Virus record (IMG/VR): IMGVR_UViG_3300044899_000013
Location: 1 to 36,647 of that record
Length of the DNA stretch: 36,647 nucleotides
Reading direction: 5' to 3' (one strand)
Source of the DNA: a virus
Part shown: piece by piece, positions 1,972 to 23,615 of the stretch
Layout of the letters: each line of letters starts with the position of its first letter
Position numbering within the stretch: position 1 is the stretch's first letter
Notes under the pieces: model-generated
Database searches by the model: none
Told to the model about the DNA's origin: nothing
Seen by the model: the letters and a program-made list of their open reading frames with translations, nothing else
Program-made: the position numbers and the translations under genes

Positions 1972-2997
1972 GTGAGCGCCCCTCCACGACCGCAGCAACG
2001 GCGTGGAAGGGCTAAGGCACAACCTCAGCTAGGAAGGTCAGGCCCTGTGGTTATCGTGGCAGTCGCCGCAACCGTGGTGAAGTCTCGGGGCACCCGGCGT
2101 GCCCTGATCGCCCTCGCCGCGGTCGCCCCCGTCATCATCGCCACCTGGGTCATCGCCGGGCTGCTGCTGGGGCTCCTGTTCCTGGCTGGTCCCCCGCCGG
2201 ACCCCACAGCGACCGCCTTGGGTGGGTGCGGTGTCGCCGCCCCCACAGCGCAGGCCCGGACCTCGTTGGCCCCCGCGCAGCTTGCGAACGCCGCCACGAT
2301 CATCGCTGTGGGTCGCCAGCTCGGGATCCCCGCGTTCGGGCTGCAGGTCGGCATCGCGACTGCGCTTCAGGAATCCAGGCTGCTCAACCTCGCCCACGGC
2401 GATGGCACGAGCGTGGGCCTGTTCCAGCAGATCAACAGCTGGGGGTCGTTCGCGCAGAGGCATGACCCCACCTGGGCTGCCCGCAAGTTCTTCGGCGCGC
2501 TCAAAGGTGTCGCAGGCTGGGCCACGATGCCGCTCACTGTTGCCGCCCAAGCGGTGCAGCGCAGCGCCTTCCCTCAGGCTTACGCGAAATGGACTTCACT
2601 GGCTGCATCCGTGGTCCACCTGCCCGCGTTGGCCGGGTCCACCTGTACCGGCACCGCAGGGTTCCCCGTCGTCGCACGGAATGGTAGCCTCCCCGCCCGC
2701 CAGGCCGCGCTCATCGTGTTCGGGCACCGCCTGCAAGCCCTCGGGTTCACCGTGGGCGAGCACCCGGCCTTCGGCGGAGTTCACCCCGTACACGCCCCGC
2801 ACTCCTTCCACTACATCCCCGGTGGGGGCGCGATCGACGTCAACTACGACGGGCACGCCACCCCCGAGAAGACCAAGCTCGACACGCTCATCCCCCTCGC
2901 CAAAGCCGCAGGGTTCCGGATCATCTGGCAGTTCCCCGGCCATTTCGACCACATGCACATAGACGTCAGCACCGGCCCCGACATGGGCCACTTCTAA
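1972..2997 (+). CDS. Membrane-anchored bifunctional wall hydrolase (transglycosylase-like plus M15-like peptidase)
   Basis: The 341-residue protein has a basic N-terminus, a membrane helix at about 44-72, and two apparent wall-cutting domains. Residues about 100-215 resemble a lysozyme or lytic transglycosylase fold, with ALQESRL (E134 the likely catalytic acid) and SVGLFQQ at 147-153. Residues about 228-341 carry an M15/VanY-like zinc peptidase signature: HSFH (H277, H280), GGAIDV (D289) and HFDHMHID (H324, H327, H329). T4SS and conjugation operons usually encode a wall hydrolase of this kind to open peptidoglycan for the channel (VirB1 or TcpG role). It is distinct from the phage endolysin at 15274 and is co-transcribed with the VirB-like genes. 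GTG start, three bases after the previous stop. Domain assignments are from motifs only. Confidence 0.8.
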   Translation: MSAPPRPQQRRGRAKAQPQLGRSGPVVIVAVAATVVKSRGTRRALIALAAVAPVIIATWVIAGLLLGLLFLAGPPPDPTATALGGCGVAAPTAQARTSLAPAQLANAATIIAVGRQLGIPAFGLQVGIATALQESRLLNLAHGDGTSVGLFQQINSWGSFAQRHDPTWAARKFFGALKGVAGWATMPLTVAAQAVQRSAFPQAYAKWTSLAASVVHLPALAGSTCTGTAGFPVVARNGSLPARQAALIVFGHRLQALGFTVGEHPAFGGVHPVHAPHSFHYIPGGGAIDVNYDGHATPEKTKLDTLIPLAKAAGFRIIWQFPGHFDHMHIDVSTGPDMGHF

Positions 2998-3021
2998 CCC
3001 ACCCAGAAGAGAGGCAAGACC

Positions 3022-3315
3022 ATGCACGCAGTAGCAGCCACAGTCGCGACGTACCTGACTCTGAAAGCGAAGCCCCCTGTGCCCGCTGCGGGGGCGACCA
3101 CCGCGAACCTGCAGACCTGGATCAAGGGGAACGTGATCCCGTTGATGATCCTGATCGTCGCGGTGTCCCTGTTCCTTCTGGCGCGGTCGGGGTCGAACGC
3201 GAAGGCGATGCGGGTTGTTGGTGGGGTCCTGATCGCTGTCGCGGTTCTTGGGCTTGCGGCGACGGGTAAGGCTGACCACTTGGGTACCTGGGCTCTTAGT
3301 TTGATCGGGGTTTGA
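3022..3315 (+). CDS. Small two-helix membrane protein, VirB2/TrbC pilin-like
   Basis: The 97-residue product has two hydrophobic helices (about 38-54 and 64-80) separated by a short polar loop (RSGSNAKAMR). That size and topology match VirB2/TrbC-type pilin subunits. A good ribosome site (AGAGAGG) lies upstream of the ATG. It stands directly before the VirB3-like and VirB4-like genes, the canonical virB2-B3-B4 order. There is no obvious cleavable signal peptide, and sequence similarity to true pilins cannot be judged by eye, so the call rests on size, topology and position. It could instead be another small channel subunit. Confidence 0.55.
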   Translation: MHAVAATVATYLTLKAKPPVPAAGATTANLQTWIKGNVIPLMILIVAVSLFLLARSGSNAKAMRVVGGVLIAVAVLGLAATGKADHLGTWALSLIGV

Positions 3316-3316
3316 C

Positions 3317-3664
3317 GTGCAGTTGCCGGTGGATGACGAGATTTACCGGGTGGACTCGGTGTGGTTGGGTCCGCCGGGGCAGACCCTGCCATGGCGTGCC
3401 CGGTACGCCGCGTACGGGGTGGGCCTGGTGGTGTTCCTGACGTTGGAGGGGGTGGAGCGCAGGCTCGGGGTGGGCTTGGGGTTCTTCACCCTCGCATGGA
3501 CCCTGTTCGGGTCGGTGCTGTTGACGCGGGTGGTGCTCAGCGTGGTGGATCATGACCGGCCCCTACGGAGTGTGGTGGCGGGTTTCTGCCATGAGGTGAG
3601 CGCACCCCGCGAACGGGTCAAGGCGTCCGAGGCCACGCTCATGCCGCCGCGGAGCACGCCGTGA
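3317..3664 (+). CDS. VirB3/PrgI-like membrane protein
   Basis: A 115-residue protein with hydrophobic segments at about 29-43 and 54-76, a soluble N-terminus beginning MQLPVDDEIYRVDSVW, and a polar C-terminus. It ends overlapping the VirB4-like ATPase (3661-3664). In T4SS loci the gene before virB4 encodes VirB3 (PrgI or TcpE type), a small membrane protein that docks the ATPase to the inner-membrane complex. GTG start at 3317, one base after the previous stop. Assignment rests on topology and gene order. Confidence 0.55.
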   Translation: MQLPVDDEIYRVDSVWLGPPGQTLPWRARYAAYGVGLVVFLTLEGVERRLGVGLGFFTLAWTLFGSVLLTRVVLSVVDHDRPLRSVVAGFCHEVSAPRERVKASEATLMPPRSTP

Positions 3665-6165
3665 GCACGTCAGGCCTCGCCCTGCGCAAGGTCTCTGGGC
3701 ACTGCACCATCACCGCTGACCGGGTGACGGCGTGGTACTTGTTGGACGGGCAGGGCTGGTCGTTCCGGCCTGACAGTGTGCGTGAGCAGCTGATCCGTGA
3801 CGGCGCGGACGCCTACGCGCAGTTGGTGGGGCGCGCGGTTCATGTGCGGGTGACGACGCGCCCGTACCCCGTGAGCGACTGGGCCGCCGCGCATGACGCG
3901 AACGCGCCCGCCCCGCTGCCGGGGTGGCGGGACTACCTGCTGCGGGACCAGCGGCATCTCGCCGGCAGGAACATGAGCGACAAGGAGGTCTACGTGGGTG
4001 TGGAGGTTCCCGCCCGGCGCGGCCTGTACCGGGTCCTGGGTGGGTTGATGGGGAGCCTGGGTGACCGCGAGGTGGCGGGATTGGCAGCGCAGATCCGGGA
4101 GACGGACAGCATCATGGGTTCCCCTGGCATGGAGGGGGCACCAGCGAGCCCGCGTCAGGTGGAGTGGTTGCTGCACCGGTCCTGCTCCTTGGGCCTCCCA
4201 GCGCCGTTGACGCTCTCCAACGCTGCCGGCGCGGAGTGGGACACCGAGGACCTCGCGGAGTTCACGGACAGTGTGCGGTGGTTCGCGGAGCCCTACGGGC
4301 GCACCCTGCGGGTGTCCGGGGAAGCCAACGGTGAGTTGGTGGAGCGGCACGTCTGCGTGCTGTCCGTGGGCCGCATGAGTGACCTGGAGATCCCGTCAGG
4401 TACGCCGTGGATGCAGCGCACCGACGCGCTCAGCTTCCCGGTCGAGTGGTCTGGGCGGGTCCTCGTCGAGGACGGGGCACGGGTCGGTGGTGCGATGCGG
4501 AAGGCGATACAGAAGATCCGCGCCCAGAAGGAGCACTACGAGGTGGAGCACACTGAGCCTGCACCGGGCGCCCTGGACCGGCAGGCGCGGCGGGCGTTGG
4601 CTGTGGAGGATGACCTGAGCGCGGGCCTGAGCGGGCTGAGCACGCGCACATCCGGGCATTACAGGCTCGCCGTCAGTGGGGCGAGCCAGGAGGAGGCGTT
4701 GGAGCGGGCGGGCCAGGTCCGCAAACTGTTCGCGCCCACCATCAGCATCTCGCGGCCGGTGGATCAGTACGCGGTGGCCCGCGAGTTCGTTCCCGGTGAG
4801 CCGTTGGGCAGCGTGGCGTACAAGCGGCGAATGCCCGTCACCACGTTGGCCGCCGCCGTCCCAGCAGCCACAGCGAAGGTCGGTGACCGGCGCGGCATCC
4901 ACCTCGGAGAGACCTCGGGGACGTCGCAGCGGGTCGTGACGTGGGAGCCGTGGGAGGCCACGGAGCGCAAGGAGGAGAGCGGCCTGGGCGTGGTCGTGGC
5001 GGGCCTTGGTGGGGGAAAGTCCACCGCGGGCGGCAACATCATCTACCGCTCACTGATGCAGGGCGTGCCGTGGACGGTGCTCGACCCGTCGGGGCGCCTG
5101 ACCGCGCTCTCCCGGCTGCCCGAGCTCGAAGGGTGCGCGCAGGCAGTGGACCTGTTGGAGGCCCAGCCGGGGTGCCTGAACACGTACAGGGTCATCGCCG
5201 AGCCCAGACCCGAGCACTACGGCACGGAGCCAGAGTGGCGCACCGCGGTCGAGCAGGCCCAAGCGACCCGCCGGATGCTCACCAGCAGCGTGCTCCGGTC
5301 CATGCTCCCTGCCGGGTTGCAGGACCACGTCTTGACCGAGGTCGCGTTGTTGCGGGCGGTTGGCGCGGTCCAAGCCGCACACACGTCCGCGCCGGGGTAC
5401 GTCGTGGACGCGTTGAAAGCCATGACGGGTGACCCCGAACTGGTGCGGCACGCCGGCTACCTAGCGGACTTCTTCGGTGAGGCCGCGAAGACGAGCCACG
5501 GCAGGCTGATCTTCCCCAGCGGGTACTACCTCGACAAGGGGCATGACGCGCCTCTGCTGACGGTCTACTCGCTGCGGGGGTTGGCCCTGCCCGATGACGG
5601 GTCGAGCGGCACCGATGACCTGGACGAGCGGCTCAGCATGTGTGTCCTCTTCTTGGCCGCCTGGTTGACGCAGCGGTCCATGTACGCGGGTGACGTGCAC
5701 CAGCGCAAAGGCATCTTCCTTGATGAGGCGTGGGCGTTGGGGACGTTCTCGGCGGGCCGCAGGTTCATTGACCGGGCGAGCCGGGACAGCCGGAAGCACA
5801 ACACGCGGGTCCTCTTGGCGTCCCAGAACCCGTCCGATCTGCTCCGGTTGGACCTGGGCAACCTCGTCAGCGCCGCGTTCATCGGCAGGCTCACGGATGA
5901 GGCTGCGCAGCGGGACGCGCTCAAGCTGTTGCCGGGGATCAGTGAGGGCGTCGGGTATGAGCCCATTTTCGGCACCCTGAGCGCGCCGACCCGTGAGGGC
6001 AGGCGTGGGGCGCGGGAGTTCGTGTTCAGTGACGGCGCGTCGATTGAGCGGATCCGGATGGATATGGGCGCGCACCCGCACCTTCTGGACGCGCTCAGCA
6101 CGACCGCGGACCCGGAGAAGGCCCGGGACCGGGTCGCCCACCTCGCAGCGGTGGTGGTCGCATGA
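3661..6165 (+). CDS. VirB4-type conjugation ATPase
   Basis: The 834-residue protein is the energising ATPase of the T4SS-like locus. Its N-terminal part (about 1-430) resembles the long N-terminal domain of actinobacterial VirB4/TraC-like proteins. The C-terminal RecA-like domain has a Walker A loop GLGGGKST (G448-T455), a Walker B IFLDEAW (D688, E689) and the late VirB4 motif LLASQNPSDL (Q722). VirB4 family members bind the inner-membrane face and power assembly or substrate transfer. Length is normal for the family (about 800). It is preceded by VirB2- and VirB3-like genes with a 4-base overlap and followed by the VirB6-like gene after two small ORFs. No frameshift is visible. The family call is solid; the exact subtype is inferred. 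Confidence 0.88.
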   Translation: MSTSGLALRKVSGHCTITADRVTAWYLLDGQGWSFRPDSVREQLIRDGADAYAQLVGRAVHVRVTTRPYPVSDWAAAHDANAPAPLPGWRDYLLRDQRHLAGRNMSDKEVYVGVEVPARRGLYRVLGGLMGSLGDREVAGLAAQIRETDSIMGSPGMEGAPASPRQVEWLLHRSCSLGLPAPLTLSNAAGAEWDTEDLAEFTDSVRWFAEPYGRTLRVSGEANGELVERHVCVLSVGRMSDLEIPSGTPWMQRTDALSFPVEWSGRVLVEDGARVGGAMRKAIQKIRAQKEHYEVEHTEPAPGALDRQARRALAVEDDLSAGLSGLSTRTSGHYRLAVSGASQEEALERAGQVRKLFAPTISISRPVDQYAVAREFVPGEPLGSVAYKRRMPVTTLAAAVPAATAKVGDRRGIHLGETSGTSQRVVTWEPWEATERKEESGLGVVVAGLGGGKSTAGGNIIYRSLMQGVPWTVLDPSGRLTALSRLPELEGCAQAVDLLEAQPGCLNTYRVIAEPRPEHYGTEPEWRTAVEQAQATRRMLTSSVLRSMLPAGLQDHVLTEVALLRAVGAVQAAHTSAPGYVVDALKAMTGDPELVRHAGYLADFFGEAAKTSHGRLIFPSGYYLDKGHDAPLLTVYSLRGLALPDDGSSGTDDLDERLSMCVLFLAAWLTQRSMYAGDVHQRKGIFLDEAWALGTFSAGRRFIDRASRDSRKHNTRVLLASQNPSDLLRLDLGNLVSAAFIGRLTDEAAQRDALKLLPGISEGVGYEPIFGTLSAPTREGRRGAREFVFSDGASIERIRMDMGAHPHLLDALSTTADPEKARDRVAHLAAVVVA

Positions 6166-6188
6166 AGAGCACCGAACGAGGGAGCACC

Positions 6189-6590
6189 ATGAATCAATCG
6201 CTAGAGGACTGGGATCGAGAGCAGCGGAACCGAGACGCCAGGCGAGAGAAAGCGGAAGGCCCATACAAAAAGTGGGCAGGCTACCTGCATCTCGCTAACT
6301 GGGGGCACGGACTGCCTGTTTTTGAGCGGCTGCGGGACGCTGACCGGGCCATCCGTGAACAGCGCCACGCAAACAACGTCCGAGGCGGGGACTACGAAGG
6401 ACTCACGTTAGCTGTCCGTGTTTGTGCTGCCACCTTCGCTGACCAGATAGCAGCGGCTGCGCCTGACCCTAGCGATCCAACTCTGCTGTGGGTGCTCGCG
6501 GGACTGCGTTGCACGTTGCGGCCGTTCTGTACGGGCTGCACTGCCTGCCAGAGCATCACGTCACCACTGCGTCCATCAGGTGCCCCCTGA
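6189..6590 (+). CDS. Hypothetical protein, about 133 aa
   Basis: I place the start at the ATG at 6189 because a GAGGGAG ribosome site lies just upstream. An in-frame ATG at 6162 would give nine more residues and an ATGA overlap with the ATPase gene, and is an equal alternative. The product is charged and helical at its N-terminus (MNQSLEDWDREQRNRDARRE), then more hydrophobic. The cysteine-rich tail (LRPFCTGCTACQS) could be a metal site or a poorly conserved end. No family recognised. Its stop joins the next gene by TGATG at 6588-6592. Confidence 0.55.
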   Translation: MNQSLEDWDREQRNRDARREKAEGPYKKWAGYLHLANWGHGLPVFERLRDADRAIREQRHANNVRGGDYEGLTLAVRVCAATFADQIAAAAPDPSDPTLLWVLAGLRCTLRPFCTGCTACQSITSPLRPSGAP

Positions 6591-6829
6591 TGGAGGGCCA
6601 GTACCGGATCGACTCCGTGTGGGCGTTCACCCAGATCGACACTGACGGCACCGAGGGCATCATCGCCATGACGATCCCCGGGCTCGGTTTCACCCCGCTG
6701 CTCGGCGCTGACCTGGCCCGCATCGCGTCGTTGCGGCCCTACGCGCAGAAGATTGCGACCGCCACCGGGCGGCCCGTGGTCCTGTCCCACTACTCCGTGC
6801 GCACCGACCAAGAGACGATCCAGCCATGA
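6590..6829 (+). CDS. Small phage-type accessory protein, 79 aa
   Basis: The frame is open from 6488, but the ATG at 6590 overlaps the previous stop (TGATG) and starts MEGQYRIDSVWAF, which fits the operon pattern. The sequence (DGTEGIIAM, PLLGADLARIASLRPYAQKI, GRPVVLSHYSVR) looks like small proteins often seen in early regions of actinobacterial phages and plasmids; this comparison is from memory. The function of that group is unknown. Its TGA overlaps the start of the VirB6-like gene. Confidence 0.65.
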   Translation: MEGQYRIDSVWAFTQIDTDGTEGIIAMTIPGLGFTPLLGADLARIASLRPYAQKIATATGRPVVLSHYSVRTDQETIQP

Positions 6830-8535
6830 GGTTGCGCCGGGTTGTGGCGGTGGTCGTGGTCACGGTCGCGCTCATGGGCACCCTCGCAGGCAGCGCGCAG
6901 GCCCTGCCCGGTGTCCCCGACTGCCGCGACGCACCCGTAGCCGCGATGCCCGGGGACGGCGTCACCGGGTTCTTCGACGGCAAACCCGCCAAGATCCCGC
7001 CCGCGGGTGACCCGTTCGCAGCCAAACCCACCACATCCGTGTACGAGCAATACGGCTACGCGGGTTTGACGTGGCACACCTACGACCTTGGGACCGCGCC
7101 CGTGTGTGTGGACGTAGCCACCACCACCGACACGATGCTGGGGAACTGGGCCATGGGGTTGGCCACCGTCGCAGTCTCAGCGGCGAACGGGTTGCACAAC
7201 AAGATCGCCCACCCCGCCACCTACATGGCGCCCCTGGACTCGGTGGTGGCGCGGGTCAGCGCCCAGATCAAGGCCGCCGTGTGGGACCCGTGGGGCGCCA
7301 TAGCCCTGCTCGCCCTCGCGGGTCTGCTGCTGTGGCGTTCCGCATCGGGCCGGCTCGCCTCGGTGGCGAAGGGCGCGGGGTGGGCTGTGGTCGTGGTCGC
7401 CGTCATGGCCGGCCTCGCCGCCGAACCCGTGAAGGCCGCGGGGTTCTTCGACGACACGGTGACGGGGGCGATAGCGCAGGTGGATGCGGCGTCAGCGGGC
7501 CTGGTCGGGACTCTGCCGGGGTCTGACCCTGCCACCGCGCAAGGCGCCCTCGTGGTGGATCGGGTCCTGTACGACTCCTGGCTGCGGGGGATGTTCGGGA
7601 CCTCCACGTCCGCCACCGCGCGCACGTTCGGGCCCCGCCTGTTCCGGGCCCAAGCGTTCACCTGGGCTGAGGCCGCGCAGCCCCCCGACAAGATTAAAGC
7701 CCTCGCGGACCAGAAGGCCACCGCGTGGAAGACCGCAGCGGACGAGCTCGCCACCAAAGACCCCGCCGCGTACCTCGCGGTGCAAGGCAAGACGGACGCC
7801 CGGAAGGGGGTGGGGGCGATGGCCGCGTTCGGGGTCGCGTTCACCAACCTGTTCAGGGTGTTGGCGGACTTCTTCGTGTTCGCCGGGCTGGTGATGCTCC
7901 GGTTCCTGGTGATGTTCGCGCCCGCTGTTGCGGTGCTCGCGGTGTTCGGGCGGGGCTCGAGCGTGGTCAAGCGGGTGCTGAACTTGGGCGCGTCGAGCGT
8001 GGTCAACGTGGTCGCGTTCTCGGCTGGGTCAGCGGTGCAGACCACCGTCGTCGCCGCGTTGCTCGGAGGCACCCGGGGCGGGGGGTTGGACGCGGTCACG
8101 CTGGTGTTGTGCGCCGTCGCCACCGTGGTCGCCCTCGTGGTGTTGTGGCCCATGCTGTCCCTGACGAGGATCGTGGGCGTGCACAAAGCCGGCGGCGGGG
8201 TGCTCCGCAAAGCTGTCAGGTTGGCGGGGAAGGCCGCCGGTGCCGCTGTTGGGGGCGCAGCGAGTGGCGCTGTGGCAGCCGAGATCCTCGAAGACGACGA
8301 CGATGACGAGAAGGGCGCGGCGGGCAAGGGGCTTGTCGCGGAAAGTTTCAGCAGAGAGGACCAGACCATGAACGAACCGCATGTGCCGCGCGCTGTTGGT
8401 GTCGCAGGCCAGGACCCGCCACGTCGCCCCCGTGAGCCTGACGCTGGGGGTCGTGAGCCTGAGCGGTGGGTGTTCGACCCCGCCACGGGGAAGACGGTCC
8501 TGAGCGAGCCTGAGCCTGAGCCGGTGGACGCATGA
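6826..8535 (+). CDS. VirB6/TrbL-like polytopic membrane protein with signal peptide
   Basis: The 569-residue protein begins with a signal peptide (about 1-26, ending GSAQA). A secreted segment with C33 and C94 follows, possibly disulphide-linked. Hydrophobic helices lie at about 155-171, 186-200, 330-376 (probably two), 390-413 and 420-447. The tail is cytoplasmic-looking: alanine/glycine-rich, then acidic (EDDDDDE at about 489-495), then proline-rich. This resembles the large VirB6/TrbL-like channel proteins of actinobacterial and Gram-positive conjugation loci. It follows VirB4 and precedes the VirB8-like gene, supporting a pore role in the inner membrane. Long antisense frames overlap this gene but are GC-driven shadows. 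Confidence 0.72.
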   Translation: MRLRRVVAVVVVTVALMGTLAGSAQALPGVPDCRDAPVAAMPGDGVTGFFDGKPAKIPPAGDPFAAKPTTSVYEQYGYAGLTWHTYDLGTAPVCVDVATTTDTMLGNWAMGLATVAVSAANGLHNKIAHPATYMAPLDSVVARVSAQIKAAVWDPWGAIALLALAGLLLWRSASGRLASVAKGAGWAVVVVAVMAGLAAEPVKAAGFFDDTVTGAIAQVDAASAGLVGTLPGSDPATAQGALVVDRVLYDSWLRGMFGTSTSATARTFGPRLFRAQAFTWAEAAQPPDKIKALADQKATAWKTAADELATKDPAAYLAVQGKTDARKGVGAMAAFGVAFTNLFRVLADFFVFAGLVMLRFLVMFAPAVAVLAVFGRGSSVVKRVLNLGASSVVNVVAFSAGSAVQTTVVAALLGGTRGGGLDAVTLVLCAVATVVALVVLWPMLSLTRIVGVHKAGGGVLRKAVRLAGKAAGAAVGGAASGAVAAEILEDDDDDEKGAAGKGLVAESFSREDQTMNEPHVPRAVGVAGQDPPRRPREPDAGGREPERWVFDPATGKTVLSEPEPEPVDA

Positions 8536-8882
8536 GTGACAGTGAAGATGTCCGCCACGCTGCCGCAAAATTGCGGACTCTGGCGGAGGCCGCGACACCG
8601 GGGCCGTGGGCCCGCGACTACCACTACATCACCGCAGAGGTGCCCAGTGGGCGCCCTGGTGGTGAGGTGATCGGGCAGATGACTCCTTCAGTCGTCCGCC
8701 TCGGCACCCCCGATAAAGCCAACGCAGCCTATGTCGCCACCATGCATCCCGGTATGGCCCTCGCGGTGGCCGACTGGCTGGATGATGAGGCTGTCGGTGC
8801 GCAGACCGAGACGGGCGAGCCCACTGCGCACTCTCTAATCATCGCCCGCGTCATCAACGCCGCGGCGGAGGTGGCCCCGTGA
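8532..8882 (+). CDS. Phage-type accessory protein (Ea22-like motif)
   Basis: The 116-residue protein contains LRTLAEAATPGPW near its N-terminus and AAYVATMHPGMALAVADWLD further on. From memory this layout is typical of the Ea22-like or related phage early proteins, whose function is not established. It lies inside the T4SS-like operon, tied by ATGA to the VirB6-like gene and by GTGA to the VirB8-like gene. A phage-derived gene is thus physically integrated in the transfer operon. Confidence 0.7.
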   Translation: MSDSEDVRHAAAKLRTLAEAATPGPWARDYHYITAEVPSGRPGGEVIGQMTPSVVRLGTPDKANAAYVATMHPGMALAVADWLDDEAVGAQTETGEPTAHSLIIARVINAAAEVAP

Positions 8883-9436
8883 ACGTGCTCCGGTGGCCGC
8901 TCTGGTCCTGGCGGAACCTCGCCGCAGCCCTCGCCGTGGTCGTCGTGGCCCTGTTCGTGGTCGGTCACCTGAGCGCGCCCGCCACAGCGGACCCCACCCC
9001 TGTTGCCGCCCCCACAACAGCGCCCGTGGCCGAGGACCCCGTGCCCACGTACACGCCCGGGCCACCCACCACGCCCGCCCCCCAGCCCACGAAGGACGTG
9101 CGGTTGGACATGATCGCCACCGTCCAAGGCTTCATGGGGGCGTGGGCGCGCCCACAGTTGGCCCAGAGTGAGTGGCTCGCGGGGGTCACGCCGTGGGTCA
9201 CCCCCGCCATGGCGAAGAGCTTGGCGACTACGGACCCCGCCCGGGTCCCCGCCACCAAGATCCTGGGTGAGCCGGTGCTGCGCCAGTACGACCAGGACGG
9301 GTGGCGGTGGGCGTTCGTCGACGTGAACACGGACGGCGGCAAACTCGTGGTGTCCCTGAGCTCGGTGACCCTTGAGCCGCAGATACGCCGCTGGACCGTC
9401 ACAGACATCAGCCCAGCGGGAGAGGGTGCACCGTGA
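8879..9436 (+). CDS. VirB8/TcpC-like bitopic membrane protein
   Basis: The 185-residue protein has a short cytoplasmic end, one membrane helix at about 13-30 (LAAALAVVVVALFVVGHL), a proline/threonine-rich linker (about 33-72), and a soluble extracytoplasmic domain (about 75-185). That domain includes TVQGFMGAWARPQ and a beta-rich C-terminal half. This architecture (one helix plus an NTF2-like domain) is that of VirB8, TrbF and TcpC, which bridge inner-membrane and outer parts of T4SS machines. GTG start by GTGA overlap. The fold cannot be proved by eye; topology and position are the evidence. Confidence 0.6.
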   Translation: MNVLRWPLWSWRNLAAALAVVVVALFVVGHLSAPATADPTPVAAPTTAPVAEDPVPTYTPGPPTTPAPQPTKDVRLDMIATVQGFMGAWARPQLAQSEWLAGVTPWVTPAMAKSLATTDPARVPATKILGEPVLRQYDQDGWRWAFVDVNTDGGKLVVSLSSVTLEPQIRRWTVTDISPAGEGAP

Positions 9437-9621
9437 GTGACCTGACCGAGTTCTTGCTGGCGCGCATCGCTGAGAAGGAATCTGGCATAACCACTGCCCG
9501 CGCCAAGGCCGAGTGCGCTGACCTGCGACGGATGGTCGCCCTGCAGGAGATCGAAATACTGCGCGTCCTTGCGCTGCCCTTCTACTGCCACCCCGAATGC
9601 AGGCGGGAGTGGCTGGCATGA
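9433..9621 (+). CDS. DUF6221-like small protein
   Basis: The 62-residue product begins MSDLTEFLLARIAEKE and ends ILRVLALPFYCHPECRREW. From memory, the DUF6221 family of actinobacterial and phage proteins has the same two ends (an N-terminal FL.AR..E and a C-terminal LR.LALPY..HP..R.EW) with a longer middle. This copy would then be a shortened member. Function unknown. It is coupled by GTGA to the VirB8-like gene and by ATGA (9618-9621) to the FtsK-like translocase. Confidence 0.68.
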   Translation: MSDLTEFLLARIAEKESGITTARAKAECADLRRMVALQEIEILRVLALPFYCHPECRREWLA

Positions 9622-11180
9622 CCCTGGACACGGTGCAGGGGGTCGCTGTGAGGGCCACCAAGGCAGCCCCGCGGGTGGGTTGGGCACTGGTGCGGGACGC
9701 CGCCCGTCAGGCCCGCAAGCACCCGCGGTGGGCCATCGTGTGGGCCACCGTGGTCGCCCTCGCCGTCTACTACCAGCACAACCTCCTCGCCCTGGAAGTG
9801 TTCGCCGGGGTCGCCGTCCCCGCCCTGCTCGTGGCCGTCGTGTCCCGGTGCTGGCCCAACCTCTGGCGCCGCAGGGTCGCCGCACCAAGGGAACGCAACG
9901 TTTGGGTCCGGTGGGCGCGGTCGAACTGGCCCAGGTTGAGTGAGGAATGCGGGCTCACCGGGACACGCCCGGTGATGCAGAAGACCCAGAACGCCAAGGG
10001 GAAGTGGGTCATGCGGTCAGTGCAGGCCATCACCCGCCCCGAACTCGTCGACGTCAGTTTCAAGGGCAGCACGCTCACCATGGTCATCCGGATCAGGTTC
10101 GGGCAGACCGTCGATGACTTGAGCGCGGCTGGGGAGGCGATCTGCGCCGCCATGGGCGGGGTGTCCTACCGGGTCACCAGGGGCCAACCAGGGGTCCTCA
10201 CGTTGCACGTCCTCACCGTCGACCACCTCGCCGCCCCCCGGCTCGCCACGATGCCGTCAGGTGCCGTCCCCAAAGTCCCCGGCGCGGTGACGATTGGCCG
10301 CAACGAGGACAACACCCCGTGTGTGCTGCAGATCTCCGGAAGGCATTCGTTGGTGGTCGGTTGCAGCGGCGCCGGCAAAGGTAGCGTGTTCTGGGGTGTC
10401 ATGGGCGGGCTCGCCCCCTCCATCCGCGCAGGCCTCGTCGAGGCGCAGGCGTTGGACATGAAGCTCGGGGTCGAGGTCACCATGGGCCGGGAACTGTTCA
10501 CGGCGATCGCGTCCGAGCGGGACGAAGCTCTGGTGTTACTGACCCGGCTCAGGGACCGCATGAACGTCCGTGGGCGGGCCATGGCTGGGGTGTCACGCGC
10601 CCACACACCCACCAAATCCGAGCCACTCGTCTGTCTGCTCATTGACGAATTGGCCGACCTACTTGCCTACTCCGACCCCGCCACCAAGAAGACCGCTACC
10701 GGGCTCTTGTCCGAGATCCTCACCAAAGGCCGCGCACTCGGATTCTCGGTGGTCGCCTGCATGCAAGATCCCCGCAAAGAAGTGATCCCCTCAAGAGGAT
10801 TGTTCACCCAAATCCTCGCCTTGCGACTCCGGTCCCCAGAGGAGGTCACGATGACCCTCGGTGCCGGCATGGCGGCCAAAGCCCCCGCCCACCACATCTC
10901 CCCCGCCACCCCCGGCGTCGGGTACGTCGTCGCCGACGACGGGCAGGCGATGCGGATCCGCCCGGACTACTGGACCGACGACATGGTCCGCGCTGTGGCC
11001 GCCCGGTACGCGACACCGCTGCCGAGCGACATGGTGCGGGTCCCCGCCGCTGGACGCAGGCGCAGGGGCACCGCGGAGGTCAACGCCGAGAACGAGGCGC
11101 AGGCCGCAGCTGACCGCGCCGCGTTGGCTGACATCGAAGCCCAGATCCGCGACGACGGATACGGGGACCTCACCGGGTAA
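9618..11180 (+). CDS. FtsK/SpoIIIE-family DNA translocase (TraB/coupling-protein-like)
   Basis: I choose the ATG at 9618 (ATGA overlap) over the longer frame from 9597, giving 520 residues. The N-terminus has a hydrophobic stretch at about 33-72 (one or two membrane helices). A linker domain follows, then an FtsK/SpoIIIE motor with Walker A GCSGAGKG (G248-G255, K254) and Walker B VCLLIDELADL. Downstream, KGRALGFSVVACMQDPRKE matches the sensor region of the family. Such motors in actinobacterial elements pump DNA: TraB moves double-stranded DNA between mycelia, and others act as T4SS coupling proteins. It is the last gene of the operon and the best candidate for feeding DNA to the channel. It lacks a clear C-terminal gamma-type DNA-reading domain; the tail is short, charged and alanine-rich. 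Confidence 0.85.
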   Translation: MTLDTVQGVAVRATKAAPRVGWALVRDAARQARKHPRWAIVWATVVALAVYYQHNLLALEVFAGVAVPALLVAVVSRCWPNLWRRRVAAPRERNVWVRWARSNWPRLSEECGLTGTRPVMQKTQNAKGKWVMRSVQAITRPELVDVSFKGSTLTMVIRIRFGQTVDDLSAAGEAICAAMGGVSYRVTRGQPGVLTLHVLTVDHLAAPRLATMPSGAVPKVPGAVTIGRNEDNTPCVLQISGRHSLVVGCSGAGKGSVFWGVMGGLAPSIRAGLVEAQALDMKLGVEVTMGRELFTAIASERDEALVLLTRLRDRMNVRGRAMAGVSRAHTPTKSEPLVCLLIDELADLLAYSDPATKKTATGLLSEILTKGRALGFSVVACMQDPRKEVIPSRGLFTQILALRLRSPEEVTMTLGAGMAAKAPAHHISPATPGVGYVVADDGQAMRIRPDYWTDDMVRAVAARYATPLPSDMVRVPAAGRRRRGTAEVNAENEAQAAADRAALADIEAQIRDDGYGDLTG

Positions 11181-11428: not shown

Positions 11429-12079
11429 CTAGTTCTCGGTTTGCCGTGTTGCTGTTCGGCGGTCGAGTTCGTCGTGCAGCGCCTGGACGACTTTGGCAAG
11501 CTCCTGATCGGGAAGCCTCACTGTTGACCGTGCGAGCCGCTCCCACTTCGGCAGGCGTTCACTCTCAAAGTGCGCGGACTGGCCGCTCCTTGTCACTTGG
11601 CGCACGCGGGTACCTAACGCTGGACGCTCACGAAGGGAAAGTCGCTCGGCGAGCGACTTTCCCGCTAGAACCTTAGCCTCACGCTTGGTGTACCCGAATG
11701 GCTCGATCGGGCGGCCAGGACGAGAAGGGACCTCACGGCGGACATCAGCCAGACGACGCCGATAACCCTCTTCGCCAGTGCGCCGCTCATCCATCGCATC
11801 CGCGAGCTTCGCCTTCACCTCGATGTCGCGGATCCCGTGCAGGATCTGGTCACGGTCGATACCTTGCTGCGTCAGGAAGTAGTCGAACTCACCCGGCATG
11901 AACCGGTAGGTCCCAAGGCCGTCACGGAATTCCCGCCAGTCGCCGGCGTCGAGCATCGCGATCAGCAGATCAGCCATCTTGGCCAGTCCAAGGTTGGTCA
12001 TCTGGAGGCTGAACTGGTGCACACGCCGCCCGTGCGGATCGAGGAAGTCCTCTTCCTTGGTCACTCGGGAGCCAGCCAT
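11429..12079 (-). CDS. Unknown protein downstream of the HNH-helicase, 216 aa
   Basis: The 216-residue soluble protein starts 19 bases inside the end of the helicase gene, so the two are co-transcribed and probably coupled. It is rich in charged residues and mostly helical, with a basic C-terminal half (GYTKREAKVLAGKSLAERLS, LPKWERLARSTVRLPDQELA). No membrane helix, catalytic motif or known domain is recognised. A strict partnership with the helicase (nuclease regulation, DNA binding or a defence accessory) is possible from position alone. Confidence 0.72.
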   Translation of the reverse strand: MAGSRVTKEEDFLDPHGRRVHQFSLQMTNLGLAKMADLLIAMLDAGDWREFRDGLGTYRFMPGEFDYFLTQQGIDRDQILHGIRDIEVKAKLADAMDERRTGEEGYRRRLADVRREVPSRPGRPIEPFGYTKREAKVLAGKSLAERLSLRERPALGTRVRQVTRSGQSAHFESERLPKWERLARSTVRLPDQELAKVVQALHDELDRRTATRQTEN

Positions 12080-14079
12080 GACGGTGTCCCCTCTTCAGAG
12101 CGTTCACAGTGCTCGTACACGCGGGTAGTCATCCACGCGATCGAGGCCGCCAACTGGTCATGGGTTGCGTCCTCACGTTTGTCGTACCCTCCCGCCTCAT
12201 TGGCCCGGTACTGGAACTCAGCGATGTTGTTCCAGCGCAGGTCATGGACAACATGGTGGTGCATCCAGTTGCTGATCTTCTGGAGTTGGGCACGCAGCTG
12301 CTTGTTGATCGTCCGCGGATCGGCCTGCGTGACCGTGACGTCATCAACCTCAGGCGTCGAGTACAGCCGAGGAAACCGCCGAACCCGACGCGCAGCCAAC
12401 GCCACCCGAGGACCGTACGTCGCTGGCACACCAAGCGCCTCGAACTCACGCTCCCATTCAGCCAGTTCCACTGCTGGAATATCGCCGTCGGTCTCACCCA
12501 CAACGGTCGCGTTCTGAAACACCGGGTTGGACAGGTCCAGCAGGCGGAACCGCAGTTCGCTGCCATTCCCACCACCGCCACTCCCTCGTTCATCTGCGTC
12601 CTCAAGCTGCTTCAACTCTTGAACGACATGCTGGGTTGGCAGCATGGCCGCCGCAAACGCCTCCCTCAACTCCTGGTGGTCAGGGATGAGGAACTGTGCG
12701 GGCAGGATCATCCTGCGCGCACGCTCTGTCTTGGTTATCCGCATCGCGCGGGCCATCATCTGGGCGACAGACAACGGCGCCACGATGTTGGAGGCGTACG
12801 CGATAGTCGAGACCTCCGGGCAGTCGAACCCCTCAGTCACCATCTTCACTGCCACGATCGCGCACGACCTTCGTTCCTGCCTTGCCTGGCGCAACGTCCG
12901 TAGTACGCCCGGTTCATCGTTGACAACGAGGTGTGCAAAGTCGTCGCCGACGAGTTGGTTGATGGCGTCAGCTGCGCGGCGGGCTGCCTTTACGTTGGCC
13001 GCGATGTAGAGCATCTTGAGCGGCTCCTCAGGACCGATGGCGTCCTGTTGGTTCATCAGCATCCGCACCGCCTCTTTCGCGAATCCGTCGACCCACGCGC
13101 GGGACTCGAACGAATCACGGATAGCGGCTTTGCGCAGAGTAGGACTGAGATCGGCCAGTGCGCCGCTGGTTACCTCCTGCGTGCGCAGGTCAAGGACTTC
13201 CGCGCGGCCGGTGTAGACGTATGAGTCTGGTGGACGCAACTGTTTGCCCACCAGATCGGCGGTTGAGATCGAGTAATCGGCTTGGGCGTGCCACGCTGCG
13301 TCATCACCGACCTCGACGTGTTCGTATCTGACTGTGCTGATCCTGTCCGTCCCATTCGATCGGAACAGGGTTCCTGTCAGGTTCAGCACGCCCGCGCATT
13401 TGATTCCGCCGAGCTGGCCGACCATGACTTTCGCCGCGTTCCCCCACGCCTTGGTATCCGCGACGTGATGAACCTCGTCCAAGACGACCAGGGTCGGATG
13501 AGCCTGCTGGCGGGTGACGTGACCACTCGCAGATCCGGGCAGCGACTGGTATGTCACAACCGCTCCGACTGTCCCTGGGAGCTCAATGAATCCGTTGCGC
13601 GGCTCAGAGTCGAGGTGGATGCCGAGGGCACTCATCGTGCGGACCCACTGCTCGACCAACGCCTTGTTGGGAACGACGACGACGAGTCGCTCAGCGAATC
13701 CGGCAGCGGCTAGGCGCTGGAACACTGTGCCGGCGAAGATCGTCTTACCCGCGCCGGGTGCGGCATTCAGTGTCGCGACGCCCTGCTGGAAGATTTTGTC
13801 GAGGATGGTTGGCAACGCTGCGGCCTGCCACTCCCTTAGTTGGACAGTCGCACGGTCACTAACGTCCTCGGCGCCAACGGACCAGTTGCACGGCGCGCAC
13901 CACGCTTCCATGTTCTCCAGGGTGGTCGCACCGCCTCCTGACCACGGCATGAGGTGCGCCTGTTGCCAAGTGGAGTCAAGTTCGACGTCGCAGCGTTGGC
14001 ACTTGCCATCGGCCCGGGTGAACAGCGTGACGAGTTCGTCTTGGGACAGTCCGCGGCGGCGGTCCCTCCCGTAGTTCAT
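12061..14079 (-). CDS. HNH-DEAD/DEAH (superfamily 2) helicase fusion
   Basis: The start at 14079 overlaps the upstream stop (ATGA on the minus strand) and gives 672 residues. N-terminal HNH-like module: C27, C30, H42, N56, C61, C64. A superfamily 2 helicase core follows: motif I AAPGAGKT (106-113), motif II DEVHH (201-205), motif III LTGT (234-237), then VTEGFDCPEVS and QMMARAMRITK as motifs V and VI. A C-terminal domain of about 200 residues has WMHHHVVHDLRWNNIAEFQY and no family I recognise. Similar HNH-helicase fusions occur in actinobacterial genomes and phages; roles from restriction-like defence to replication or repair are possible. The residue before the HNH histidine is alanine (QQAHLMPW), where Asp or His is usual, so nuclease activity may be weakened. 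Confidence 0.82.
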   Translation of the reverse strand: MNYGRDRRRGLSQDELVTLFTRADGKCQRCDVELDSTWQQAHLMPWSGGGATTLENMEAWCAPCNWSVGAEDVSDRATVQLREWQAAALPTILDKIFQQGVATLNAAPGAGKTIFAGTVFQRLAAAGFAERLVVVVPNKALVEQWVRTMSALGIHLDSEPRNGFIELPGTVGAVVTYQSLPGSASGHVTRQQAHPTLVVLDEVHHVADTKAWGNAAKVMVGQLGGIKCAGVLNLTGTLFRSNGTDRISTVRYEHVEVGDDAAWHAQADYSISTADLVGKQLRPPDSYVYTGRAEVLDLRTQEVTSGALADLSPTLRKAAIRDSFESRAWVDGFAKEAVRMLMNQQDAIGPEEPLKMLYIAANVKAARRAADAINQLVGDDFAHLVVNDEPGVLRTLRQARQERRSCAIVAVKMVTEGFDCPEVSTIAYASNIVAPLSVAQMMARAMRITKTERARRMILPAQFLIPDHQELREAFAAAMLPTQHVVQELKQLEDADERGSGGGGNGSELRFRLLDLSNPVFQNATVVGETDGDIPAVELAEWEREFEALGVPATYGPRVALAARRVRRFPRLYSTPEVDDVTVTQADPRTINKQLRAQLQKISNWMHHHVVHDLRWNNIAEFQYRANEAGGYDKREDATHDQLAASIAWMTTRVYEHCERSEEGTPSWLAPE

Positions 14080-14276
14080 TTCTCGGCCTTGGTTTTGCTG
14101 CCGAACCATGTGCGGACAGCTTGGCCGCTGATGGGGACACCGGTTGTCTTGTCGAGTTCACGGGCGATCTGCTCCCATGACACGCCTGTTTCGCGGCGGC
14201 TGGCAACGTGCTCGGCTAGGGGTTGCCCAAGGCGGGCTTCGATTAGCTGGTAACTGCGGGTCTGTTTCGGGTCCAT
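14076..14276 (-). CDS. Small HTH-like protein, first gene of the helicase operon
   Basis: The frame is open further upstream, but the credible start is the ATG at 14276, giving 66 residues (MDPKQTRSYQLIEARLGQPL onward). The longer version would run across the divergent operator. The segment GVSWEQIARELDKTTGVPIS then GQAVRTWF reads like a helix-turn-helix, so it may bind DNA and control the divergent promoters. Its stop overlaps the helicase start. There is no ribosome site before 14276, but a possible -10 lies 7 bases upstream, consistent with a leaderless transcript. Confidence 0.65.
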   Translation of the reverse strand: MDPKQTRSYQLIEARLGQPLAEHVASRRETGVSWEQIARELDKTTGVPISGQAVRTWFGSKTKAEK

Positions 14277-14375: not shown

Positions 14376-14876
14376 ATGAGCGAACACTTGACATTGACTG
14401 AGGCCGCGCAGCGCGCCGGGGTGTCCCGGTCCACCATCCGCAGGAAGCATGAGGACAAGAAGTTCCCCCACGCGGCGATCGTCCGCGGGCAGTGGCGGAT
14501 CCCCATCGAAGACCTAGAGGCGTCGGGTGTGATGCGGCGGGCGTACGCGATGAGCCCGCTCGTCGCTCACCCTGGCGAGGCTGTGGCGGAGGTTGTCGAG
14601 CACGAAGAGCGCGCTCCTTTTGCAGGATCGCTCAGCGTGGTGGAGGAAATGGGCAGGTTGCGGGAGGCGTTGAGCGCGGCACTGCACCGAGCTGAGCTCG
14701 CGGAGGCTATTGCGACGGAGCGGGGTATGGCGTTGGAGCGCCACGACCGGGCCATGCTCATGCTCGAAGCCGCACCCAAGCCCCCTGCCGCGATTGAGGC
14801 GAGGCCGGTGGGGGAGCCGTGGTGGCGCAGGCTCCGGACGCAGCAAACCGCCCCACAACCCTCAGGGATGAAGTGA
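14376..14876 (+). CDS. Excisionase/MerR-type HTH regulator with coiled-coil tail
   Basis: The 166-residue protein has an N-terminal HTH (about 5-50: LTLTEAAQRAGVSRSTIRRK, then GQWRIPIEDLEASG) of the HTH_17 or excisionase type. A helical, coiled-coil-prone region follows (about 80-130) and a short tryptophan/arginine segment (GEPWWRRLR) lies near the end. From memory, proteins with this layout are common on actinobacterial plasmids and integrative elements and are thought to act as regulators or partition-like factors. Divergent from the helicase operon and isolated on its strand, so it is probably an immunity or copy-control regulator. No clear ribosome site precedes the ATG. Confidence 0.75.
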   Translation: MSEHLTLTEAAQRAGVSRSTIRRKHEDKKFPHAAIVRGQWRIPIEDLEASGVMRRAYAMSPLVAHPGEAVAEVVEHEERAPFAGSLSVVEEMGRLREALSAALHRAELAEAIATERGMALERHDRAMLMLEAAPKPPAAIEARPVGEPWWRRLRTQQTAPQPSGMK

Positions 14877-15015: not shown

Positions 15016-15264
15016 TCAGGAGGCTACCTCAACGGTTCCAGGTGCGACGACGGCCCCAGCCTTGAGCCATGCGGGGATCAGACCCCGGTCCTCCAGAGCG
15101 TTCACAACCTTCGTGGCGACCGCGAGGAACCCCAACACGACGGCGAGCTTCGCTGCCAGGGGTGAGGACTGGGGGAGTGCGAGGGCGAGGATGGGGACGA
15201 TGCCGATGCACGCGACCAGGAACTGGTAGGCGGTGCGTAGGGCGCGGCGGGTGGAGTCGTTCAT
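15016..15264 (-). CDS. Holin-like membrane protein
   Basis: The 82-residue protein has two hydrophobic helices (about 10-30 and 36-56) with a polar N-terminus (MNDSTRRALRTAYQF) and a short soluble C-terminus (ALEDRGLIPAWLKAG). It lies directly downstream of the endolysin gene, the standard lysis-cassette arrangement. Holins form membrane lesions that release the endolysin. The small size, two helices and position support the call; holins have little conserved sequence. Confidence 0.72.
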   Translation of the reverse strand: MNDSTRRALRTAYQFLVACIGIVPILALALPQSSPLAAKLAVVLGFLAVATKVVNALEDRGLIPAWLKAGAVVAPGTVEVAS

Positions 15265-15273
15265 GGTGCTCCC

Positions 15274-16167
15274 TTAGTGGTGGTTGGCGGTGCGGAACCG
15301 GGCGTAGGCGGCCTGGGTGGGGGTGTCCCAGAGCCCGGTGACGGTGACGGCGAGGAGGCCTTGTGCGCGGCGGGTCCACGCGGTGATCGCGAACCGTGAC
15401 TGGTCGCCCCACTTGCCGTCCTCAACGGTGCCGATGACGCGTTGGATGAGGCGGATGGTGGAGTCTGCTGACCCGGCGAGGGTCCCGGCTTTGGCCTGGG
15501 CCGCTGTGGTGACCCACCCGGATCTCTGATCCGTCTCGGCGCCCCATACTCCGTCTCGGCGGACGGGCGCGAACGCGAGCAGGGTCTGCCACGCGGTCAC
15601 GCTCAGACCCGCCGTGGTCGGTGGGGGTGGGGGAGTGGTGTGCGGGGTGCCCATGATCGCCACCACCCTGGCCATGAACGCGGCCCAAGGGAAGTTCTCG
15701 CCCACATCGGTGTGGGTGCCCTGCCGGTAGACGCGGGTCACGGCGTGGTGGTCGACGATGCCCCGCTGCCCAGCCCCAAGCTCAGCGTCGGACAGGTGCC
15801 GCGCGGGTAGCCCGTAGGCCTTGCACCATGCGGCGGTGCGTTGCGCGGCCCGCTCAATGATCGCCAACGAAGGACCGTCAGCCCACTGCGCCACGGACTG
15901 CCCTGCCCTGCCGGCCATCTCTAGTTGGAGCCCGTCACTGTTGGCGCCCGGCGCGGCCCAAGCGGTGTCACCGTCGAGGACGTACCGGCATTCACTGTCG
16001 GGGTCGATGCCGACGTGGCTGGAGGCTTGGGTGGCTGGCCGGGCGAAGTAGTTGCCGACCGCCTCAGCGGTGCTGAGGTCTTCCGGGCTTTCCATAGTGT
16101 GCAGAATTACGCAGCGAATGGGCTTGAGACGGCCCTTATGGAAGTTCGGGCTCAATATGACTGTCAT
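15274..16167 (-). CDS. Endolysin: N-acetylmuramoyl-L-alanine amidase (Amidase_2)
   Basis: The 297-residue lysis enzyme should cut the amide bond between MurNAc and L-alanine. The Amidase_2 domain spans about 10-170, with CVILHTMES (H23), a central SSHVGIDPD segment, GIVDHHAVTR (H140) and THTDVGENFPW (D154); H23, H140 and D154 are the likely zinc ligands. A proline-rich linker (about 174-185) leads to a C-terminal region with two DG.WG-type motifs, typical of peptidoglycan-binding repeats. There is no signal peptide, so export depends on the neighbouring holin-like protein. An AAAGGCG ribosome site precedes the ATG. Confidence 0.88.
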   Translation of the reverse strand: MTVILSPNFHKGRLKPIRCVILHTMESPEDLSTAEAVGNYFARPATQASSHVGIDPDSECRYVLDGDTAWAAPGANSDGLQLEMAGRAGQSVAQWADGPSLAIIERAAQRTAAWCKAYGLPARHLSDAELGAGQRGIVDHHAVTRVYRQGTHTDVGENFPWAAFMARVVAIMGTPHTTPPPPPTTAGLSVTAWQTLLAFAPVRRDGVWGAETDQRSGWVTTAAQAKAGTLAGSADSTIRLIQRVIGTVEDGKWGDQSRFAITAWTRRAQGLLAVTVTGLWDTPTQAAYARFRTANHH

Positions 16168-16845: not shown

Positions 16846-18837
16846 TCAGGCGGTGACTTCGAGGCGGGTCCAGCGGCCCGTGGTGCCGGACGCCTCAAAC
16901 CAGACGTAGCCGCCCCGGTAGGCAGAGTCGGTGGCTGTGTTCGTGTACGGCCCGACATCGGTGCGGCTGATACTGACCGTGGTCGGGGTGACGGTGATCT
17001 TCCCGGTGATGTTCTGCGGCAAGGTGAGGGCGACGGTGGTGACGTTGGCGTAGTTGGTGACAGCGACCCCATCGGTGTATTTGCTGATCGCTAGGGCACC
17101 GAGGCCGTTGATGAGGACCCGGTAGCCGTTGATGCCGGTGGCTGCCCCTGAGTCGTTGTAGGGCTTGTCGTCCCCTGCGCAGATGAAGAACCCCATGAAG
17201 CGGCCTGTGTCGCTCATCGACTCGATCCGCAGGCTGTAGTCGATGGTGAACGTGTCCGCTGCTGGGAGGCCCTTGATGGGGCTGATCGCCCCCGCGAGGA
17301 CGGTGCGCCCGCCGAGGTTGGTCACGTCAGCGAAGCCCCACCCGTCAGGGGCGGTGAACACCCCACGGATGGCCGCCGAGCCTGCGATGTGGCCGTGGTA
17401 GAAGGCTTGGGACGTGAACGGCATCTTGGGTAGCCGGTAGGCGTACCCGGTCTGTGCGCCCTTGGAGTAGATCGGGTCGTCGGAGTACCAGCCATCGACC
17501 CCTTTGGTGAGCACGGCTGCGACATCGGACTGGCGGCTGACCGTGTAGGCGAACACCTTGACCCCTACGGCGTGCAGGGACGTGACCAGGGCCGTGGTGA
17601 AGGACGCTTGGGTGTAGTCGATGCCCACCGATTTGACCCCTGCCGCTGCGAGGGCTGCGGGGGTCTGCTCGATGCCGGTGGTCATCGTGAACAGGACGTG
17701 CGCGCCGGATGCGACAAGGGTGGGGATGCTCGCCCAGAACGACGTGGACGCCATCACTGACTCAGCGACCCCGAACCGGGCGATCTGCGCGGCGAGTGGC
17801 GCGGCGGCTTCAGGGGTTTTCGCTTCGACGCTGATGACGACACGGTTCCCGAACTCGGTGAACAGTTGGGACAGCAGGGGTGGGCGCAGGTTGCCCCACC
17901 CGCCACCGAACCACGATGCGGCGTCGATGGTGAGGTTCTGCCAGGACATCGCGGACTGGTCGGTGGTGGCCCCGGTGCCGGTGGTGGTCCGGTCGAGGGT
18001 GTTGTCGTGCATGACGGCGAGTACCCCGTCAGCGAGGAGCCCGGTGTCTGCGTCGATGACGGTTGCGCCTGCGCCCAGCGCGGCCCGGTATCCCTCTAGG
18101 GTTTCTTCGGGTGCGAGGTTCGCGCCGCCTTTGTGTGCGATGGCCAAGGGGTAGGTCAGGTCCACGACACGGGCGACGAAACCGGGCAGTTGGTTGGCTG
18201 GGACCTTCCCGCCAACCAGGGACGCATAAGTGGAACTAAGCGCAGTCTTCGTGGTGCCCGCACCGACCGCCGTGGCGAGCTGGGCGTCGCTCATAACTGG
18301 GCCCTGCGGACCAGTGGCACCGGCCGGCCCGGTGGGGCCCGCCACGACGGAGTCGGCGCCCGCTGGCCCCGGCACAGTGGAGGCCGCACCGGGAACACCC
18401 TGGATGCCTTGGGGACCGGTCAATCCTTGGGGTCCGATGGGTCCACCGGATGGACCAACCGGCCCGACAGGACCCACCACAACAGGCACACCAGCGGATG
18501 TGGGGACCGGGGACAACGCCGAGTAGTCGATCGTGTCAGGGGACTTCGCGAGGAACACGTCGAAGCTGCGCCCGCCAGTGGTGCGCTCAACCACTTTCCA
18601 AGTCCAGGATGTGGGGTTCCCGGCGCTGTCATCCGTGGCGGGCAGCTCGAACCCGGCAGGGAACGCGCCGTTGACCAGGACCGCGGAGACCTTCGCTGGG
18701 AGGGTGACGACTTTCGGGCCGAGGTAGAGGACCGGGACACTGGGGATGAAGTCGATTGACCCGACAGCGGGGGTGCCGTCGGGGTCGAGGACCAGGCCGG
18801 TGATGCTAACTGTGGTGATCCCTGCGGGCAGTGCCAT
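16846..18837 (-). CDS. Tail/adhesin protein with collagen-like repeats and GDPD domain
   Basis: The start at 18837 (MALPAGITTVSITG) has an AAGGAGCC ribosome site; the open frame extends to 19158 but overlaps the upstream gene. The product is 663 residues. Residues 1-115 are beta-rich, as in tail-attachment domains. About 119-181 are Gly-Pro-X repeats (GPVGPVGPSGGPIGPQG) that should trimerise. About 230-490 match glycerophosphodiester phosphodiesterase: AHKGGANLAPEETLEGY (H235), ATVIDADTGLLADGVLAVMH and DNTLDRTTTGTG. A beta-rich C-terminal domain of about 170 residues may bind receptor. GDPD enzymes hydrolyse glycerophosphodiesters; on a phage tail the likely target is a glycerol-phosphate wall polymer. 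In the motif HRGG the Arg is Lys here. Confidence 0.85.
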   Translation of the reverse strand: MALPAGITTVSITGLVLDPDGTPAVGSIDFIPSVPVLYLGPKVVTLPAKVSAVLVNGAFPAGFELPATDDSAGNPTSWTWKVVERTTGGRSFDVFLAKSPDTIDYSALSPVPTSAGVPVVVGPVGPVGPSGGPIGPQGLTGPQGIQGVPGAASTVPGPAGADSVVAGPTGPAGATGPQGPVMSDAQLATAVGAGTTKTALSSTYASLVGGKVPANQLPGFVARVVDLTYPLAIAHKGGANLAPEETLEGYRAALGAGATVIDADTGLLADGVLAVMHDNTLDRTTTGTGATTDQSAMSWQNLTIDAASWFGGGWGNLRPPLLSQLFTEFGNRVVISVEAKTPEAAAPLAAQIARFGVAESVMASTSFWASIPTLVASGAHVLFTMTTGIEQTPAALAAAGVKSVGIDYTQASFTTALVTSLHAVGVKVFAYTVSRQSDVAAVLTKGVDGWYSDDPIYSKGAQTGYAYRLPKMPFTSQAFYHGHIAGSAAIRGVFTAPDGWGFADVTNLGGRTVLAGAISPIKGLPAADTFTIDYSLRIESMSDTGRFMGFFICAGDDKPYNDSGAATGINGYRVLINGLGALAISKYTDGVAVTNYANVTTVALTLPQNITGKITVTPTTVSISRTDVGPYTNTATDSAYRGGYVWFEASGTTGRWTRLEVTA

Positions 18838-18875
18838 GGTCAGGCTCCTTGATGGTGGTGCGGGTTGGGCAGGGA

Positions 18876-21763: not shown

Positions 21764-21838
21764 GAGATCTCCTTAATTAGTGCGTTGTGCGAAGCGCCTA
21801 CTGGCTCGGTTGGTGTTGCACCCTCTGGCAGTGCCGGA

Positions 21839-23613: not shown

Positions 23614-23615
23614 GC

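Follow-up and report, generated by a model that had tools for sequence, protein, structure and literature searches.

A T4SS-like transfer operon on the same molecule as the late genes of an actinobacterial siphovirus

DNA movement by viruses and by conjugative elements is commonly regarded as following separate routes, and a phage equipped with a transfer machine would join both. In AICEs and Streptomyces plasmids, TraB moves double-stranded DNA without a T4SS-type relaxase (PMC3218068; PMC12857230). In Streptococcus pyogenes, the conjugative prophage phi1207.3 is transferred by a process resembling conjugation (PMC4260502), and phage-plasmids are hybrid mobile elements whose derivatives gain a relaxase or an oriT for mobilisation (PMC10879196). 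Among open-licence papers, we found no report of a phage-encoded T4SS. The window studied here, a single IMG/VR virus record (IMGVR_UViG_3300044899_000013, 36,647 bp, with no wider genome), is a fragment of an uncultured actinobacterial siphovirus, and on its plus strand, at positions 1972-11180, an earlier note had described a T4SS-like transfer operon.

Phage late genes and transfer genes on one molecule

The late region of the window is genuine, containing capsid, the C-terminus of the portal, a MuF-like protein, tape measure and endolysin, among which the capsid, portal, tape measure and endolysin identify a siphovirus. The tail and head module occupies 16846-36647 on the minus strand, from tail fibre genes to portal (tape measure protein 3e-73, capsid protein or MCP 5e-82, portal 3e-31, MuF-like protein 1e-37), and the lysis genes, on the same strand at 15016-16167, consist of a putative holin assigned by its position (15016-15264; phrog_4316, of unknown function, 5e-5) and an amidase endolysin (15274-16167; PHROG 1e-35, Amidase_2 1e-11). 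The earlier note had seen an apparently complete set of head, tail and lysis genes at 15016-36647; these genes are real, but the head set is incomplete, as the window ends inside the portal gene at 36647 and holds no terminase. A terminase is present in three related phages described below (G001, G401 and G402) and, together with the portal, capsid and tape measure of the window, excludes a plasmid misfiled as a virus. The tail genes at 16846-19158 and 18876-21323 show a glycerophosphodiester phosphodiesterase domain and, judged solely from a motif (EWDILEYF), a GH16-like glycanase, so that these proteins (16846-21323) are probable degraders of wall polymers. Between the operon and the lysis genes lie an HTH_17/excisionase-like regulator (14376-14876, plus strand; Pfam HTH_17 4e-9, phrog_66 4e-7) and, on the minus strand, an HNH and ResIII/DEAD helicase (12061-14109; Pfam ResIII 4e-16, HNH 2e-5) with a partner protein that has no family match (11429-12079), a pair (11429-14109) weakly resembling defence helicases.

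The window has no end repeats and is known from an assembled contig alone, which would suit an assembly chimera or a prophage beside an unrelated ICE in a host chromosome. A search of virus databases for the same pair of modules makes this explanation very improbable. The IMG/VR scans used short peptide patterns, so that their count of such phages is a minimum. The closest of them, G001 (IMGVR_UViG_3300034965_000017, 41,183 bp), has a VirB4 81% identical to that of the window and also encodes terminase, portal, capsid, tape measure and two tyrosine recombinases (L006 1285-2154 and G001 33421-34236). An exact 127-bp repeat at its two ends and a hydrolase ORF that stays intact across the join show the molecule to be circular, and with a portal that shares only about 33% identity with that of the window, G001 represents a different phage. 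A second genome, G401 (77,934 bp), is also circular, with an exact 127-bp end repeat, and carries terminase, portal, capsid and tape measure along with the T4SS operon. Its relative L030, a 15.7 kb contig with T4SS and phage genes (VirB4 71% identical), comes from a different metagenome, and in both the operon, which includes no motor, comes straight after the lysis genes and shares their late strand. The linear G402 (69,716 bp) encodes terminase and tape measure and has the operon at its contig end; the nearest relatives of this operon are a chromosomal locus common to two genomes, which makes G402 the weakest case, where a host flank is still conceivable. Independent genomes thus carry the pair, two of them circular, and a lysis-to-T4SS order recurs in two metagenomes. 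A chimeric assembly is ruled out by the circular relatives, and it is very likely that the late region and the operon are really joined on the same molecule.

No such operon was found among 50,697 records of cultured phages, save three weak Tn916-type matches, of which one carries the annotation of a Tn916 inserted in a prophage. Other candidates were discarded: L059 and L060, found by FtsK, have no VirB4 and appear to be records that contain an AICE-type Tra, and L061/L062 give remote FtsK matches only. The earlier note had regarded as adverse a pattern in which related phages never carry the operon while plasmids do, and this pattern was found in part: no VirB4 was detected in 21 contigs with related capsids, although short fragments make up many of these, and the operon occurs in plasmids and AICE-like elements, but other phages have it too. 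Because capsid relatives lack VirB4 and other phages possess it, the operon is an accessory module captured repeatedly and not a fixed family trait.

Components of the operon

An ORF check of the window found all the named ORFs in their places within 1972-11180, and matches for VirB4, the motor and VirB8, together with orthologous genes in actinobacterial AICE-like elements and linear plasmids, bear out the earlier description of a T4SS-like transfer operon. Overlapping or nearly so, all on the plus strand, the genes follow the order hydrolase, VirB2-, VirB3-, VirB4-, VirB6- and VirB8-like, and FtsK-type motor, as had been claimed, with the correction that two to three small ORFs of phage type or of no known kind are interleaved among them. 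All the ORFs are open and the transmembrane (TM) topology of the products is consistent with each assigned role.

The first gene (1972-2997) encodes a membrane-anchored wall hydrolase with a VirB1-like role, one TM segment, a lysozyme/SLT-like domain and a C-terminal M15-like domain. PHROG (1.5e-36 to the lysozyme part of a tape measure protein, 3.6e-15 to an endolysin) and PDB matches (muramidase 8b2e, 7e-19) identify it as the peptidoglycan hydrolase of a Gram-positive minimised T4SS, and orthologues occur in G001, G402, a chromosomal element of Phycicoccus and the genome G104. The VirB4-type ATPase (3661-6165; Pfam AAA_10 2e-18, NCBIfam TcpF 3e-15), whose nearest solved structure is VirB4 4ag5 (2.7e-10), possesses the intact Walker motifs expected of such a system, with a Walker A (AGLGGGKST) invariant among relatives and a Walker B IFLDE. 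The VirB8-like protein (8879-9436), assigned earlier by topology, combines one TM segment with an NTF2-like domain, and its fold model (pLDDT about 90 in the domain) supports this assignment, as its best PDB matches are Gram-positive conjugation proteins (TraM of pIP501, 4ec6, Z 11.3; 3ub1, Z 10.7) and several bona fide VirB8s (Z 9 to 10); on this model, the window encodes the NTF2-like membrane protein of a minimised T4SS. No VirB8 was recognised in G001.

The three remaining membrane proteins are assigned less directly. The VirB2-like protein (3022-3315), small and with two TM segments, has an orthologue at the corresponding position in G001 (57%) and in Phycicoccus (59%), as it has in two out of three Streptomyces plasmids. 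The VirB3-like membrane protein (3317-3664), encoded directly upstream of VirB4, has orthologues 60% identical in G001 and Phycicoccus and 39-45% identical in the Streptomyces plasmids. The VirB6-like polytopic protein (6826-8535), with a hydrophobic N-terminus and about 7 TM segments, is 54% identical in G001 and 49% in Phycicoccus and was also detected in G401, G402, L030 and G104; homology and synteny with AICE and plasmid operons, plus the TM count, make it the VirB6-type component. The VirB2, VirB3 and VirB6 labels proposed earlier are thus favoured as probable ones by orthologous, syntenic genes in AICE-like elements and plasmids, but direct matches to characterised VirB2 and VirB3 families (Pfam, NCBIfam) or to Pfam VirB6 were not obtained.

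Among the interleaved ORFs, the one at 6162-6590, between VirB4 and VirB6, has no family match and overlaps an ORF at 6488-6829, whose end lies in the ATGA of the VirB6 start. Another (8532-8882) shows weak similarity to phage Ead/Ea22-like early proteins (phrog_5585 2.7e-4; Pfam Ead_Ea22 only 0.11), and the third (9433-9621) is a small DUF6221 protein (PF19730 2.6e-9). As these small ORFs sit between the T4SS genes of the window and not in G001, where VirB6 directly follows VirB4, they suggest that the operon went on evolving inside a phage.

The operon ends with an FtsK/TraB-type membrane-anchored DNA motor (9597-11180, with a start that may be 9618). It matches phrog_1358 (FtsK/SpoIIIE, 3e-20), and its closest PDB matches are FtsK (2iuu, 9e-8) and the 'DNA translocase coupling protein' 6o1w (9e-6), which we take to be TcpA, with no VirD4-type match listed; its match to PF01580 is below the curated cut-off, and a poor structure prediction (pLDDT 51) was not used. 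The protein is 54% identical to that of G001 and 45% to a Phycicoccus AICE-type Tra, its Walker A (GCSGAGKG) and Walker B (LLIDE) are intact and, as for VirB4, profile and structure matches agree with the motifs that the earlier note had seen directly. The window therefore contains the FtsK/TraB transfer motor of AICEs. The relaxase of relaxase-dependent conjugative elements was sought in two families, PF03432 and MOBF (PF08751), both absent from five records (the window itself being a fragment), an absence to be expected because TraB-type transfer moves double-stranded DNA (PMC12857230, PMC3218068).

Origin and maintenance of the operon

In a maximum-likelihood tree of VirB4, the window and G001 are sister to the Phycicoccus chromosomal element (100/100), whose copy is 71% identical to that of the window, G402 falls beside two chromosomal copies, and L030 and G401 are placed elsewhere. 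Supported branches force at least three separate gains in phages, a count that rests on several supported forks, although one long branch (L044) near L030/G401 calls for caution. In the loci of Phycicoccus sp. HDW14 (L029/L033-L035) and G104 (L090-L091), the T4SS genes have an FtsK/TraB motor nearby, along with integrase-like and RepSA-like genes labelled by position and appearance; phage structural homologues were found in neither, and from their sequences both look like AICEs. In such AICE-like loci the same set of T4SS genes occurs together with an FtsK/TraB motor, and the phage operon therefore resembles in its composition the transfer part of an AICE-like element, a close relationship that speaks for its identity as a transfer machine. 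The combination of T4SS, FtsK/TraB, RepSA-like and integrase-like genes in L033-L035 and L090-L091 contrasts with the usual description of AICEs as elements that can do without a T4SS. On inspection by eye, no RepSA was noticed among the ORFs of G001, and Rep and integrase were not seen in the truncated window. In two actinobacteria (G097 and G199; L083-L086), a locus with a VirB4 61-64% identical to that of G402 occupies the same chromosomal neighbourhood, near a gene resembling GTP cyclohydrolase, and appears fixed, not mobile.

The operon might be a functionless relic of ICE-phage recombination that merely hitchhikes with the phage, as its chromosomal relative is close (71%), capsid relatives do without it and G001 has no recognisable VirB8. 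We consider such a relic improbable: open ORFs and intact ATPase motifs, tightly coupled phage-type ORFs inside the operon and at least three independent captures all argue against decay. So do the dN/dS values between the window and G001, well below 1 (about 0.20 for VirB4, 0.39 for VirB6 and 0.37 for FtsK), which are rough, with synonymous sites near saturation. As judged from these comparisons, VirB4 is under purifying selection, and the operon likely retains a function. The independent captures suggest that the trait pays.

Proposed function and comparison with known systems

Contact-dependent transfer of phage double-stranded DNA is, in our view, the most economical reading of these sequences. 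From the parts, their linkage, their recurrence and the selection acting on them, we infer an assembly, a substrate, a direction and a benefit as follows. A complete or nearly complete envelope transfer module would have been taken by a temperate siphovirus from AICE-type elements of actinobacteria. The hydrolase would open the peptidoglycan locally, VirB3, VirB4, VirB6 and VirB8 would form a membrane channel, and the FtsK motor, relaxase-free in AICEs, would pump excised or replicating phage DNA, double-stranded, into a touching cell, and the phage would have two routes of spread, the virion and cell contact. We give an even chance to the operon being a module captured by temperate phages from actinobacterial AICEs that moves double-stranded DNA by contact, and hold the odds of DNA transfer as its function to be about even. 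An FtsK-family motor is found in all four larger phages and, as in AICE-like elements, in or near the T4SS operon in three of them. In G401, the circular phage of 78 kb, it lies far from the operon and is an HNH-FtsK protein (L072 2539-4161; an FtsK/HerA motor with a fused HNH-like N-terminus), which may do something other than T4SS coupling. Together with this distant motor, the unrecognised VirB8 of G001 and the capsid relatives devoid of VirB4 weigh against DNA transfer, as does the search for a transfer origin (oriT/clt), in which the repeats found close to the motor gene did not yield a convincing clt site.

Alternatively, the T4SS could be kept for another envelope job, such as protein-effector delivery to rival cells, superinfection exclusion or local wall remodelling that aids release. 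The position of the G401 and L030 operons, behind the lysis genes and motorless, would suit such a role, as would the lack of a recognisable VirB8 in G001 and the two actinobacterial chromosomes that keep such a locus in a common neighbourhood, apparently outside a mobile element. Nevertheless, three of the four larger phages, like the AICE-like elements, keep the FtsK motor in or near the operon and no effector candidate was recognised, which makes another envelope job the less likely reading. If, as the transfer reading holds, the machine moves DNA, some phages may spread in two ways. Such phages could evade receptor-based resistance and, without lysing cells, cross mycelium or biofilm, and the earlier report that prophages can be conjugative would become open to mechanistic tests. 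More tentatively, a class of actinobacterial temperate phages could have repeatedly acquired FtsK-coupled type IV machines and send its genomes from cell to cell without virion or receptor, in a dual-mode lifestyle.

Among known systems, phage-plasmids share the hybrid nature of the window phage, and a T4SS is not mentioned in their description (PMC10879196). The prophage phi1207.3 differs in that no T4SS has been reported for it and its mechanism is unknown (PMC4260502). In the streptococcal prophage IPP61 (KY065497; L080), T4SS genes lie inside a phage record, as here, but belong to Tn916, an ICE that has its own Int/Xis and lies nested inside the prophage, and not to a phage operon. These two, the conjugative prophage and the nested Tn916, are the nearest precedents. 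The Gram-positive minimal T4SS of pCW3 (Tcp), pIP501 and Tn916 are alike in their VirB4/TcpF-type ATPase, VirB8 fold, FtsK-like coupling ATPase and wall hydrolase; they possess relaxases, whereas neither tested family was found here. Streptomyces linear plasmids such as pRVR2 (NZ_AP018367), NZ_CP029542 and NZ_CP050694 have a VirB3-4-6-8-hydrolase operon (VirB4 44%) but differ by ParA and other plasmid genes and by having no annotated virion genes. AICEs with an FtsK/TraB motor (PMC3218068), especially the Phycicoccus and G104 loci, share the same gene set (VirB4 71% identical in Phycicoccus), but have Rep and Int and no capsid, whereas in the window phage the hydrolase comes first, the motor last and phage-type ORFs are inserted. 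Each half of the molecule, the phage late region and the T4SS module, is thus already known as a kind.
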